From positions 124,001 through 188,000 of the forward strand of contig NZ_FOZV01000001.1 in assembly GCF_900116065.1 (NCBI RefSeq): a stretch of DNA of 64,000 nucleotides, given 5' to 3'. The stretch comes from Brevundimonas viscosa. Lineage in GTDB: Bacteria; Pseudomonadota; Alphaproteobacteria; Caulobacterales; Caulobacteraceae. Under the pieces are notes generated by a model, which saw nothing but the letters and a program-made list of their open reading frames with translations, did no database searches and had not been told where the DNA came from. The translations under genes and the position numbers were made by a program. Of the stretch, positions 31,830-61,021 are shown piece after piece (position 1 is the first letter of the stretch; every line of letters starts with the position of its first letter).

Positions 31830-31945
31830 CGAAGCCAGCGGTCTTGCCAGGACCCGAAGGTCCGATCGCGCCATTCCCTCCGGGCGAGGGAAAGTGTGTT
31901 GACGCGAACCCCGCTGACAGGCGCGGGCGGCTACTCCCCGATGAC
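31830..31945 (-). promoter_or_regulatory. yybP-ykoY type manganese riboswitch
   Basis: Minus-strand leader of the TMEM165 gene. It has the three class landmarks in order: GGGGAGTAG (31939-31931), CGTCAACA in the middle junction (about 31904-31897), and GGCAAGACC (31848-31840), with stems between them (for example TTTCCCTC/GAGGGAA and GGACC-TTCG-GGTCC). This class senses Mn2+ and is known upstream of Mn exporters including UPF0016 proteins. Its first landmark contains the TAG stop of the PAP2 gene, so sensor and upstream gene overlap. Expression platform details are not resolved. Confidence 0.8.
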
Positions 31946-32695
31946 GGCGGGGTCTGTAGCGGCGGGCGGGGCGTCGTGCAAGCCGCCGGCGTGGCGGGCC
32001 TGCCATCGCTGCGCCGCCCAGGCGACCAGCCACAGGGCCATGGCCCAGGCCGCGCCGGCGCACCAGCCGGCGACGACGTCCGAGGTCCAGTGGGCGCCGA
32101 GATAGATGCGGGTGAGGCCGACCAGGGCGGCGATCAGCATGGCCGCCCCAAGCGCGAAGGCCTTGAGCCGACGGCGCGGCAGGACGCGGATCAGCATCAC
32201 CCCGAGGCTGAGGTAGAAGACGGTCGCGAGCAGGGCGTGGCCGGAGGGGAAGCTGGCGTTCAGGGTCTCCACCGCCTGGTAGGCGGCGGGCGGACGCTCG
32301 CGTTCGAACAGGGCCTTCAGCCCCTCGCTGAGACCGACCCCGCCGGCCAGTCCGAGGGCGAGCAGCGCCGCCGACAGGCGCTTGCCCTGGATCAGCAGGA
32401 AGGCGAAGGCGATGAGGGCGAACAGGGCCAGGACGGAGATGCCGCCGAGCGAGGTCAGGTCGGCGGCGGCCTCGTGCAGCCACCACGGGCCGCGCGGCTC
32501 GCCGGGGACCGGCTGCAGCCACAGCAGCACCGCCTCGTCGATGGCGCGGCCGTCCGCCTCGGTCATGTCGTCGGCGATCTCGATGAAGGTCATCACGCCC
32601 AGCGCAATGATCGTGAGGGCGGCGAGGGCGGCGATTTCGGCGCGCGCCAGACGCAGGGTCCGGCGCAGGAGATCGAGGGCGGCGGCGCGGTTCAT
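31931..32695 (-). CDS. PAP2 family membrane phosphatase
   Basis: A 254-residue membrane phosphatase with the acid-phosphatase motif set: KALFERERPPAAY (C1 KX6RP), FPSGHAL (C2 PSGH) and SRIY-like TRIYLGAHWTSDVVAGW (C3 SRX5HX3D, here with Thr for Ser). Six helices are predicted. Likely substrates are undecaprenyl pyrophosphate or phosphatidic acid/PGP. The start at 32695 (MNRAAALDLLRR) is preferred; a GTG at 32731 is possible. The stop codon TAG is the end of the GGGGAGTAG riboswitch motif. Confidence 0.88.
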   Translation of the reverse strand: MNRAAALDLLRRTLRLARAEIAALAALTIIALGVMTFIEIADDMTEADGRAIDEAVLLWLQPVPGEPRGPWWLHEAAADLTSLGGISVLALFALIAFAFLLIQGKRLSAALLALGLAGGVGLSEGLKALFERERPPAAYQAVETLNASFPSGHALLATVFYLSLGVMLIRVLPRRRLKAFALGAAMLIAALVGLTRIYLGAHWTSDVVAGWCAGAAWAMALWLVAWAAQRWQARHAGGLHDAPPAATDPAVIGE

Positions 32696-35879: not shown

Positions 35880-35890
35880 GGATGAGGTTC

Positions 35891-35966
35891 CAGGTTCTAG
35901 GGGCTAGGGGCTAGGGGCTAGGCGCGAGAGCCCCACTAGAACCTAGAAACTAGAACCTAGAACCTG
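35891..35966. repeat. Heptad-arm inverted element, locus B (CTAG type)
   Basis: Left arm: CTAG at 35897, 35904, 35911 and 35918, each 7 bases apart, as CTAGGGG units. Right arm: CTAG at 35936, 35943, 35950 and 35957, again 7 apart, as CTAGAAC/CTAGAAA units. Outer ends CAGGTTCTAGG / CCTAGAACCTG are perfect inverted repeats. Central spacer CGCGAGAG. The right arm contains the ggt stop codon (35959-35957). Confidence 0.85.
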
Positions 35967-46762: not shown

Positions 46763-50486
<3,724 letters not shown>

Positions 50487-50488
50487 GA

Positions 50489-50603
50489 GGTGGTCGGTGA
50501 TTGGTGGTTGGTGGCTGGTGGCGAACGCGTCATCGCCGCCGTCCGATCAGGTACGGCGGCGATCCAGCAATCACCAATCACCAGCCACCAATCACCGCAC
50601 TAC
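50489..50603. repeat. Heptad-arm inverted element, locus C (GGTGNNN type) with inner stem
   Basis: Left arm: GGTGGTC, GGTGATT, GGTGGTT, GGTGGCT, GGTGGCG in five uninterrupted heptads (50489-50523). Right arm: AATCACC, AATCACC, AGCCACC, AATCACC (50569-50596), which read GGTGATT, GGTGGCT, GGTGATT, GGTGATT on the other strand. Between them is a perfect 11-bp stem, ATCGCCGCCGT/ACGGCGGCGAT (50532-50542 and 50553-50563). It fills the whole gap between dnaN and recF and reaches the dnaN stop codon at 50602. Confidence 0.88.
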
Positions 50604-51718
50604 ACCCGCAGCGGCATCAGCACGTACTGAACGCCCGGGTCGCCCGGATCGAGCACCAGCGTCGGCGAGGCCGGGTCGGCGAACTTGAACATGGCGGTCT
50701 CGCCGGTGATCTGGCCGGCGACGTCGAGCAGGTAGCGGGCGTTGAAGCCGATCTCGAAGGGCTCGTCGGAATAGCCGATCTCGACCTCCTCGACCCCCTG
50801 CCCGGCCTCCATGTTGCGCACCGTCAGGGTCACGCGGTCCAGCTCGAAGGCCAGCTTCACCGAGCGGCTCTTCTCGGCCGAGATGGTGGCGACGCGGTCG
50901 ACGGCCGAGGCGAAGACGGCGTTGTCGATGTCGGCCTGCTTGTCGTTGCCCTTGGGGATGACGCGCATGTAGTCGGGGAAGGCGCCGTCGATGACCTTGG
51001 AGGTCAGGCTGGCCTGGCCGAACTCGAAGCGGATCTTCTGCGGGCTGACCATGATCTCGACCGGGCCGGAGCCGTCGTCGAGCAGGCGGCGGACCTGGTC
51101 GACCGTCTTGCGCGGCACGATGACGCCGGGACCGCCAGCGGCGCCTTCGGGCGCCGGGGTCTCGGCAAGGGCCAGGCGGTGGCCGTCGGTGGCCACGGCG
51201 CGCAGCAGCGGAATGCCGGCCTCGGCCACGGTGTGGAGGTAGAGGCCGTTCAGATAGTAGCGGGTCTCCTCCGTCGAGACGGCGAAGCGGGTCTTGTCGA
51301 TCAGCCGGGCCAGATCTTCCTTGGCCAGGGTAAAGCGGGTCCCCGAGGTGTCGGTCGACATCACCGGGAAGTCGCCGGCCGGCAACACCGGCAGGTTGAA
51401 CTTCGAACGCCCAGCCTGGACCACCAGGCGCGGATCGTCGCCGGAGTAGCTGAGCGAGACCTCGGCGCCGTCGGGCAGCTTGCGGACGATCTCGTACAGG
51501 GTGTGGGCCGGGGCGGTGATCTGGCCCTCGACGTTCACCTGGGCCTCGGCCTCGTCGACCATCTCCATGTCGAGGTCGGTGGCGGCGAAGGACAGGCGGT
51601 CGCGCCCGGCGCTCAGCAGCACGTTCGACAGGATCGGGATGGTGTTGCGCCGTTCCACCACGCTCTGGACGTGCCCGAGGGCCTTCAGGAGCGCGGAACG
51701 TTCGATGGTCAGCTGCAT
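50600..51718 (-). CDS. dnaN: DNA polymerase III beta subunit (sliding clamp)
   Basis: Ring-shaped clamp that holds the replicative polymerase on DNA. 372 residues, MQLTIERSALLKALGHVQSV at the start and VQYVLMPLRV at the end, a standard clamp C-terminus. Three clamp domains are evident, including LLSAGRDRLSFAATDLDMEM, TRYYLNGLYLHTVAEAG and NARYLLDVAGQI. Lies between dnaA and recF; heptad elements occupy both flanks. Confidence 0.97.
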   Translation of the reverse strand: MQLTIERSALLKALGHVQSVVERRNTIPILSNVLLSAGRDRLSFAATDLDMEMVDEAEAQVNVEGQITAPAHTLYEIVRKLPDGAEVSLSYSGDDPRLVVQAGRSKFNLPVLPAGDFPVMSTDTSGTRFTLAKEDLARLIDKTRFAVSTEETRYYLNGLYLHTVAEAGIPLLRAVATDGHRLALAETPAPEGAAGGPGVIVPRKTVDQVRRLLDDGSGPVEIMVSPQKIRFEFGQASLTSKVIDGAFPDYMRVIPKGNDKQADIDNAVFASAVDRVATISAEKSRSVKLAFELDRVTLTVRNMEAGQGVEEVEIGYSDEPFEIGFNARYLLDVAGQITGETAMFKFADPASPTLVLDPGDPGVQYVLMPLRV

Positions 51719-59967: not shown

Positions 59968-59973
59968 GGGAGT

Positions 59974-60052
59974 GGCTGGTGGCTGGTGGCTGGTGGCCAT
60001 CAGACGGCATGTCGGCGGCGGCGCCAATCACCAATCACCCGTCACCCGTCAC
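59974..60052. repeat. Heptad-arm inverted element, locus E (GGTG type)
   Basis: Left arm: GGCTGGT three times plus GGCCATC (59974-60001). Right arm: CAATCAC, CAATCAC, CCGTCAC, CCGTCAC (60025-60052). Reading the right arm on the minus strand gives GGTGACG, GGTGACG, GGTGATT, GGTGATT in the same register as the left GGTGGCT units. It fills the space between mutM and the DUF1697 gene; the right arm holds the mutM TGA stop (60051-60049). Confidence 0.85.
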
Positions 60053-60912
60053 CGCTTCTGGCATGACGGGCACCAGAAGGTGGAGCGGCCAGCCTGCACC
60101 GTGCGTCTGACCACGCCGGAGCAGCCGTCGCCGGCGCAGGGCTTGCCCTCGCGGCCGTAGACGTCGAAGCGGTGCTGGAAATAGCCCTGTCCGCCCTCGG
60201 CGTTGGCGAAGTCCCGCAGGGTCGAGCCGCCGGCGGCGATGGCGTCGTTCAGCACGTTGCGGACCTCGGCGGCGAGGGTCTCGAGCCGCGGCCGGGAGAC
60301 CTTGCCCGCGGCCGTGAGCGGCGAGACGCGGGCGCGGAACAGGGCCTCGCAGACGTAGATGTTGCCCAGGCCGGCGACGATGCGCTGGTCCAGCAGGCTG
60401 ACCTTGACGTTCTGCTTCTTGCCGCGGAACGCCTCGGCCAGATGAGCCCCGGAGAAGGCGTTGCCCAGCGGCTCGGGGCCAAGGCCGGCGAACCACGGGT
60501 GGGTCTCGACGGCCTCGGTCGGGATCAGGCCCATGAAGCCGAAGCGGCGGGCGTCGGCGAACCCCACCCGCGTCGCGCGGCCGTCGCGGACGGCGCACAG
60601 GCTGAGGTGTTCGTGCTTTCCCGTTGCGGGCGCCGTCTCCTCGAACTCCCCGATCTGGTCGCCGTCCAGCGTGAAACGCCCGGTCATGCCGAGGTGGGTC
60701 ACCCAGGTCTCGCCGGTCGACAGGGGCATGAGCAGGTATTTGGCGCGGCGCTCGAGGCGCTCGACCGTCGCCCCTTCCAGCCGCTCGCGGAAGCGCTCGG
60801 GGAAGGGAAAGCGGAGGTCCGGCCGGTTCTGCCGCACCCGGGTCAGGCGTGCGCCCTCCAGCACCGGCTCCAGGCCGCGGCGGACGGTTTCGACTTCGGG
60901 CAGTTCAGGCAT
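60049..60912 (-). CDS. mutM: Formamidopyrimidine-DNA glycosylase
   Basis: Base-excision repair enzyme (Fpg) that removes 8-oxoguanine and cuts the backbone. 287 residues from MPELPEVETVRRGLEPVLEG, with catalytic Pro2 and Glu3, the VTHLGMTGRF loop, the KVSLLDQRIVAGLGNIYVCE helix-two-turn-helix and the C-terminal zinc finger built from CAGDGC and CPSCQ. Upstream in-frame residues (from 60984) come from repeat sequence and are rejected. Stop lies in heptad element E. Confidence 0.96.
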   Translation of the reverse strand: MPELPEVETVRRGLEPVLEGARLTRVRQNRPDLRFPFPERFRERLEGATVERLERRAKYLLMPLSTGETWVTHLGMTGRFTLDGDQIGEFEETAPATGKHEHLSLCAVRDGRATRVGFADARRFGFMGLIPTEAVETHPWFAGLGPEPLGNAFSGAHLAEAFRGKKQNVKVSLLDQRIVAGLGNIYVCEALFRARVSPLTAAGKVSRPRLETLAAEVRNVLNDAIAAGGSTLRDFANAEGGQGYFQHRFDVYGREGKPCAGDGCSGVVRRTVQAGRSTFWCPSCQKR

Positions 60913-60923
60913 GAGAGGCGCTG

Positions 60924-61021
60924 GATTCCAGGTTGCAGGGATCAGGGGCTCGGGGCGTCCGGAACTGGCGGGGGTGGAAACCAACTACCCTGAAACCTCG
61001 GCCCTGGAACCCAGAACCTGC
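60924..61021. repeat. Heptad-arm inverted element, locus F (CAGG type)
   Basis: Left arm heptads CCAGGTT, GCAGGGA, TCAGGGG, CTCGGGG (60928-60955). Right arm heptads ACCCTGA, AACCTCG, GCCCTGG, AACCCAG, AACCTGC (60987-61021), which read as GCAGGTT, CTGGGTT, CCAGGGC, CGAGGTT, TCAGGGT on the other strand. It lies between the divergent mutM and OPT starts, so unlike the other five it is not at a gene 3' end. Confidence 0.75.

Follow-up and report, generated by a model that had tools for sequence, protein, structure and literature searches.

A heptad-armed hairpin between dnaN and recF of Brevundimonas viscosa, a probable copy of a dispersed element family related to S23 intervening sequences

Introduction

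The gap between dnaN and recF in Brevundimonas viscosa is taken up by one long hairpin, which raises the question of whether the structure serves the recF gene beside it or is there for reasons of its own. The initial annotation proposed that it may control the output of recF relative to dnaN, or be a processing or termination site. In what follows, the window is the whole stretch of 64,000 nucleotides that was analysed.

Anatomy and folding of the element

The element is a heptad-armed inverted repeat at 50489-50596, which occupies the whole 113-nt gap from the dnaN stop (50600) to the recF GTG (50486). The minus strand of the window carries dnaA, dnaN and recF (Pfam-checked), as well as gyrB (by eye). 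The features of the locus are as follows:

49362..50486, minus strand: recF, SMC_N (RecF/RecN/SMC) match in Pfam; GTG start 2 nt from the element
50489..50523, plus strand: left arm, five GGTGNNN heptads (sequence pattern)
50532..50563, no strand: inner stem 50532-50542 / 50553-50563 with its 10-nt loop, specific to the dnaN-recF copy
50569..50596, minus strand: right arm, four complementary heptads (sequence pattern)
50600..51718, minus strand: dnaN, three DNA_pol3_beta domains in Pfam; stop codon 3 nt from the element

The sequence confirms the earlier description of five GGTGNNN heptads facing four complementary ones around a perfect 11-bp stem with a 10-nt loop, and an additional fifth heptad of the right arm (50562-50568) carries one mismatch. 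The arms pair over 50495-50520 / 50572-50597 as an inverted repeat that is 88% complementary. The gene-sense RNA folds at -72 kcal/mol (z -7.0), which bears out the proposal of a hairpin spanning the whole gap, and the plus strand folded as DNA gives -43.5 (z -8.1). Of the relatives with a match from residue 1 onwards, nearly all start recF with GTG, TTG or ATG.

The inner stem (ATCGCCGCCGT / ACGGCGGCGAT) is a perfect 11 bp, and when the inner 51 nt were shuffled, a stem as long as this arose in one of 5000 shuffles. Among 58 cores of 30-80 nt, a figure that includes duplicate fetches, only five have a perfect stem of at least 8 bp, and the nested perfect stem is no family feature of the heptad elements.

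An intrinsic terminator has a G+C stem and then a T run on the gene strand; the stem of the element, read by eye, has no such run behind it, which speaks against a termination site. In the whole window, Rfam at its gathering thresholds returned only a tRNA and a manganese riboswitch (yybP-ykoY, window 31849-31951), with no known RNA family at the element. As a processing site, the hairpin is a plausible candidate. A side effect on recF is possible, because the dnaN stop and the recF start come to lie side by side when the hairpin folds, and this closeness in the folded RNA may also help the host to tolerate the element.

The dnaN-recF gap in relatives

The gap was surveyed at 70 loci, of which 13 without the dnaN end were left out, so that 57 were compared. 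A heptad element fills the whole gap in nine of these (the present one included), with 2-6 nt left on the stop side and 1-10 nt on the start side, while six have no element and a gap of only 22-29 nt, three have a different inverted repeat of 130 nt, and 39 have a long insert of at least 382 nt. Several of these long inserts resemble extra genes, and one of the 39 loci (L244) also ends in a heptad element. The unit is GGTGATT in the present genome, AGTGATT in L241 and AGTGGCG in L253, L263, L294, L288, L295, L262 and L259, and two of the latter (L262 and L295) resemble each other in their arms but not in their cores. The initial annotation had named a lack of conservation of the nested stem in close relatives as evidence against its reading, and such a lack is observed: the closest sampled congener by RecF (G143) has a different inverted repeat in the gap.

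Other kinds of sequence were also observed in this gap. The 130-nt repeat, of the CTCCCCC...GGGGGAG type, fills it in L231, L249 and L289, which include G143. In about ten relatives (L237, L266, L274, L272, L251, L267, L270, L275, L243 and L240), the insert has a sequence like CCGCTCATCCCGGCGAAAGCCGGGACCCAGT near its start and mostly also inverted at its end, and a frame within it resembles, by eye, a small GIY-YIG nuclease. These inserts are possibly another class of intergenic element with a gene of its own.

Copies in the window, the genome and the genus

A pattern of three heptads has eight matches in the window, against 0.00 expected by chance, and all eight belong either to the dnaN-recF element or to a second element beside mutM, the TGA of which falls within the first heptad. 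A third inverted repeat was found by a search for periodic arms. These features are:

35885..35965, no strand: third heptad-armed inverted repeat, unit AGGTTCT / AGGGGCT, between convergent genes (periodic-arm search)
59971..60053, no strand: second heptad-armed element, from mutM to the next gene (heptad pattern; missing in G143)
60049..60984, minus strand: mutM (fpg), recognised by eye from its MPELPEVE start and C-terminal zinc finger

In the rest of the genome and in its relatives, the elements are dispersed. The four-heptad pattern occurs at seven places of the own genome, all of which were read and folded; a two-heptad match at C7:764 kb was dropped, given that it has no facing arm. The exact unit pattern is present in nine of the 299 genomes of the family, all nine within the genus, and the congener G165 has the most matches of the own-genome unit among the 299. 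In G165, a shorter pattern has at least 123 matches, and 31 paired elements were extracted from 20 stretches covering most of the listed places. A degenerate unit, RGKGNNN, is matched in 75 of the 81 genomes of the genus, a count for which there is no valid chance control, since heptad arrays and poly-G runs also match the reversed pattern and make this control unusable. The own unit carries GG rather than the GGG that is present in related units of the genus. Outside the family, a locus of Planctomycetota FR_29 (L158) has very long arms of GGTGGTT heptads, of approximately 129 nt each.

These copies bear directly on the function that had been proposed. A dedicated attenuator or terminator setting recF output relative to dnaN would agree with an element that fills the gap and folds strongly, but many copies stand beside unrelated genes, there is no T-run, and 48 of the 57 species lack a heptad element that directly fills the gap (in L244 one lies behind the long insert), so that this explanation is very improbable. 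Given both the dispersal and the 57-species census, recF-specific regulation was rejected as the reason for the element. Dispersed intergenic palindromes are also what a REP/BIME-type element moved by a RAYT (Y1 transposase) would produce; PF01797 was found in only one of 14 genomes (G306), which is neither the present one nor G165, and the PF01797-type RAYT, which has no match in the other 13, is refuted for those and is the least probable of the explanations considered.

Arms, cores and the seven-nucleotide period

The test of the period covered 157,734 nt, namely the window together with 29 recF loci, a sample that had not been picked for its heptads. Inverted repeats of at least 22 nt with periodic arms numbered eight at lag 7, one at lag 12 and none at lags 4-6 and 8-11, and the strictest settings found lag 7 alone. 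With settings of 18 nt and 0.8, on the other hand, there were seven at lag 7, ten at lag 12, three at lag 10 and two at lag 9, and the window at 14 nt gave seven hits at lag 7, 18 at lag 6 and 23 at lag 9; the test is specific for lag 7 at the stricter settings only and unspecific at the laxer ones.

The elements of G165 have arms of approximately 3 to 8 units and a core of 28 to 68 nt. When the cores were clustered, 35 remained singletons, and one cluster of 21, in which the dnaN-recF element is counted twice from two fetches, joined cores from G165, G183, L180 and L170. The membership of the dnaN-recF core in this cluster is weak, its score against the cluster consensus being only about two standard deviations above shuffles. 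The consensus fold of 13 cores is also weak, with a covariation term of 0.04.

If the pairing of the arms were under selection, the variable positions of true partners should match better than those of swapped arms, which they do not (0.855 vs 0.848). This result argues against selection for exact pairing, which was therefore rejected. At the ends of the elements, TGAAG stands in the last 10 nt before the arm or the first 4 nt of the arm at nine of the 62 ends in G165, and among TGA stops it is found in seven of the 31 that adjoin elements vs none of 50 others, which is suggestive of a terminal consensus TGAAG|GGTG.

Filled and empty sites

Sites at which the own genome or G165 is filled, and which were picked for that reason, were compared among congeners. 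At the mutM site (site 2, 59971-60053; 14 congeners), the nine that were classified are four filled versions, with units GGTGGCT, AGGGATT, GGTGATT and TAGGGAT, four empty ones and one with an insert of 571 nt; in G143, the genes are 2 nt apart, the flanks 95-98% identical, and the element is missing. At site 3 (C7:190.87 kb), seven of 14 have heptad elements of various units and seven have none (by eye). At site 4 (C7:354 kb), 11 were searched and 10 have the locus, of which five are filled, four are empty (17 nt) and one is of another kind. At site 5 (C7:799.6 kb), where ten of the 11 were classified, three are filled, one of these with degenerate arms missed by the finder, three are empty, with the stops of the convergent genes overlapping in CTAG, and four have other inserts. 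Clean empty versions thus exist at three sites across congeners, and no target-site duplication was seen by eye at the filled and empty sites compared. A separate observation at site 3 is that the seven relatives without heptads have a common leader like GTGACATGANGGCGGGGCGTGAGTATCCCGCC before the downstream gene.

The content of a site varies between species, given that the heptad unit and the core often differ, the cores often completely. L170, which is 88% identical to G165 over 4 kb, has the same element plus one extra heptad at one site, and elements that differ from those of G165 in arms or cores at two others. We infer that most of the empty sites reflect insertion rather than loss.

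One other possible origin is the growth of heptad arrays in place through polymerase slippage, with inversion by template switching in the hairpin, in which case nothing moves. Heptamers are reported as the most abundant class of such repeats in most genomes, and slippage has been proposed for them (PMC4679880; PMC4692102); the extra heptad in one orthologous element would also fit. This origin is nevertheless unlikely, because cores that are related to each other recur across many sites in either orientation (the clustered core has opposite orientations at site 5 in G165 vs G328), because whole elements occupy positions at which the flanking genes of relatives are 2 nt apart or overlap in their stops, and because heptad arms also enclose S23 genes, as described below.

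Position relative to genes

The position of 39 elements (31 from G165 and 8 from the own genome) was determined on genes called by a simple codon-usage finder: 13 lie between convergent genes, 25 between tandem genes and one between divergent genes. By gap, in stretches that were picked for holding elements, an element is present in one of 36 divergent, 13 of 33 convergent and 25 of 142 tandem gaps. The distance on the stop side is from -5 to +10 nt in 43 of 51 cases, and in the tandem gaps the stop side is the nearer one in 23 of 25, with a median of 2 nt vs 44 nt on the start side. In ten cases the distance is exactly -5, the stop being the TGA of the first heptad (GG-TGA-NN). As a frame that runs into an element soon meets a heptad TGA, forcing could partly account for these ten; contrary to a forced stop at the mutM site, however, relatives there without the element use the same stop codon. 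One exception is an element of L378 (G083:C2:336500-337700), with heptad arms and core in frame inside a mutL-like open frame (by eye), where it apparently extends a linker.

Hairpins selected as stabilisers or processing sites of mRNA 3' ends, with a content that turns over freely, would account for the strong 3'-end position, the near absence between divergent genes and the sites that are kept while their content changes. Several relatives, however, have no hairpin at the same site, and the arms have no covariation at their variable positions, which leaves this a rather improbable explanation, slightly more so than slippage.

S23 genes within heptad arms

Five loci whose arms stand apart were opened, and an S23 gene lies between the arms in three of them (G213, G279 and G078), with none in the two of G083 (L377, L378). 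The protein of G213 matches PF05635 23S_rRNA_IVP at 2.5e-38 and TIGR02436 'four helix bundle protein' at 8.5e-36, and its match to Avd families falls below their curated cut-offs. Two loci of other phyla, L201 and L148, fetched by the heptad pattern, also have an S23 gene within heptad arms. The arm units of the three genomes (GGTGGCT in G279, AGTGGCG in G078, AGGGAGT in G213, which carries other units as well) recur in gene-less matches of the same genome.

Given that all of these loci were found through their heptads, separate sets of S23 loci were collected by protein similarity, and an array was called wherever a 21-nt stretch in the 160 nt next to the gene, on one side or both, had a period match of at least 80%. 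A period-7 array is present at 30 of 46 S23 loci vs 10 of 178 control windows; the same 46 have period 8 in four, period 9 in one and lags 4-6 and 10-12 in none. In the first set (3 viral contigs and 18 of 36 plasmid records, with controls taken at a distance of 1 to 1.8 kb), period 7 was found in 14 of 21 loci, period 8 in three, period 9 in one and lags 4-6 and 10-12 in none, whereas the 112 controls gave four, two and three for periods 7, 8 and 9. Without the viral contigs, period 7 is found in 11 of 18. In the second set (33 further viral contigs from an alignment-based search, reduced to 25 by the removal of duplicates), period 7 was found in 16 of 25, period 8 in one and other lags in none, vs six of 66 controls for period 7, with S23 windows that could exceed those of the controls by as much as about 150 nt.

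The loci of these sets are partly non-independent, since L379 is 96% identical to the query (viral contig) and L383/L384 and L403/L404 are near-copies. At 16 of the 46, no period-7 array reaches the threshold, and sub-threshold heptads are visible by eye in L402, L409, L419 and L429; L392 meets the threshold yet shows no array by eye, and L430 and L432 are partial or weak S23 matches.

In annotated plasmids, the S23 gene lies between genes of operons (cas10/cmr3, cas6/cas4 and tra-like genes), and the arm starts no more than about 10 nt from the upstream stop in 10 of the 13 cases shown (by eye), the exceptions being L386, L398 and L399. Three S23 genes of cyanobacterial plasmids (L385, L395, L390) are situated within type I-D and type III-B CRISPR operons, where period-7 arrays flank the first two and a period-8 array the third. 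In L374 and L379, the S23 element adjoins a frame like the C-terminus of a terminase large subunit (by eye), a setting that is perhaps a gene-transfer-agent or prophage cluster.

At E 0.01, no S23 gene was found in the window or in the own-genome stretches taken, and no S23 remnant was found in the cores.

Comparison with known systems

The closest comparison is with the intervening sequence (IVS) in the 23S rRNA of Coxiella burnetii, in which an S23 ORF is preceded by tandem GACAGAT heptamers of strain-variable copy number; the ends of this IVS form a stem of 28 bp, and RNase III excises it (PMC4990558). The shared features are inverted terminal arms that form a long stem, as they do in the dnaN-recF element, heptameric repeats (in the 5' region of the IVS), an S23 ORF in the gene-bearing version and host genes that stay usable. 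The 23S rRNA IVS lies in helix 45 (PMC4990558), unlike the dnaN-recF element, which lies between protein genes and, unlike the ORF-bearing IVS, has no S23 gene, its S23-bearing siblings being those of G213, G279 and G078. For an S23-heptamer link outside rRNA, this was the only relevant paper among the matches listed by a literature search in which subscription journals are thinly covered.

Heptameric repeats are also described in Xanthomonas and Nostoc, with GGGAATC / GGGGA(C/T)T units (PMC4692102). Two Xanthomonas genomes have 70 and 75 inverted pairs, for which the excerpted text gives no known function; the pairs are nearer to the upstream ORF and scarce between divergent ORFs, and 83% are in the same gene context in a relative, with 16% missing or mutated (PMC4692102). 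As in the heptad elements, G-rich units of 7 nt in tandem form two convergent arrays close together, and the elements of the genus are similarly near the stop codon and scarce between divergent ORFs. On the other hand, the repeats are treated there as simple repeats whose GGG tracts have G-quadruplex potential, where the own unit has GG, and the excerpted description includes no precise empty sites, core family or S23 link (PMC4692102). An S23 protein of solved structure is present in X. campestris (XCC0516, 2gsc).

The TAACTGA heptamers of Beggiatoaceae are likewise intergenic units of 7 nt, with stops in all three frames, scattered over distant lineages; they differ in being direct repeats, save for one inverted case, and in lying mostly just upstream of starts (PMC4679880).

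Miniature inverted-repeat elements (MITEs) are similar in being small and dispersed, with inverted ends, a non-coding core and clean empty sites, and dissimilar in that the heptad elements have no target duplication or parental transposase that was seen, and arms of tandem heptads with a unit that varies between species. As the parent of MITE-like heptad copies, the S23 elements are only a candidate. Cyanobacterial STRR heptamers are also heptamer arrays, and resemble the heptad elements in this; to our knowledge, they have not been described as the arms of one element.

Origin and significance

Taken with the S23-bearing versions that have such arms in the genus and in other phyla, the dnaN-recF copy is read as a miniature relative without S23. 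We consider it probable, though well short of assured, that this element is a copy of a dispersed, probably mobile family of heptad hairpins, an S23-less relative of the S23 intervening sequences. In its members, a core that is usually short and non-coding stands between two inverted arms built from 7-nt units, RGKGNNN being their general form in the genus. Most members are found in intergenic gaps, close to where the upstream gene has its stop codon, and the S23-bearing elements would supply the mobility. The long double-stranded RNA may be cut by RNase III, as in the 23S rRNA IVS, which would explain the tolerance of the host; the dnaN-recF hairpin is probably an RNase III substrate that is nearly neutral to its host, and any effect on recF would be a by-product.

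The most economical reading is that of one class of element, with heptad arms and with or without S23, which is mostly intergenic or, in some bacteria, located in rRNA. A broader possibility can be put forward tentatively, and we hold it to be doubtful: S23 genes would be the core of a bacteria-wide mobile class with inverted ends of 7-nt (sometimes 8- or 9-nt) units and insertion mainly at intergenic stop codons, of which the rRNA intervening sequences would be the copies in rRNA, and the palindromes of this genus (perhaps those of Xanthomonas and others) the S23-less copies. S23, as a distant relative (below curated cut-offs) of Avd, a protein of diversity-generating retroelements, would then take part in copying or insertion at the RNA level, a step in which the heptad unit is rewritten as well.

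The rRNA intervening sequences and the heptamer repeats, each described with an unclear role and origin in the portions available (PMC4990558, PMC4692102), are tied together by the S23-heptad association, given that heptamer arrays border the gene in most of the S23 loci found by protein and that a stop codon tends to mark the start of gene-bearing and gene-less versions alike. If this connection is right, S23 would be an element-encoded protein, there would be a reason for the commonness of heptamers, and bacterial mRNAs would be predicted to carry insertions between genes that are cut by RNase III. The dnaN-recF case is a warning against reading such a hairpin as a regulator specific to the gene beside it.
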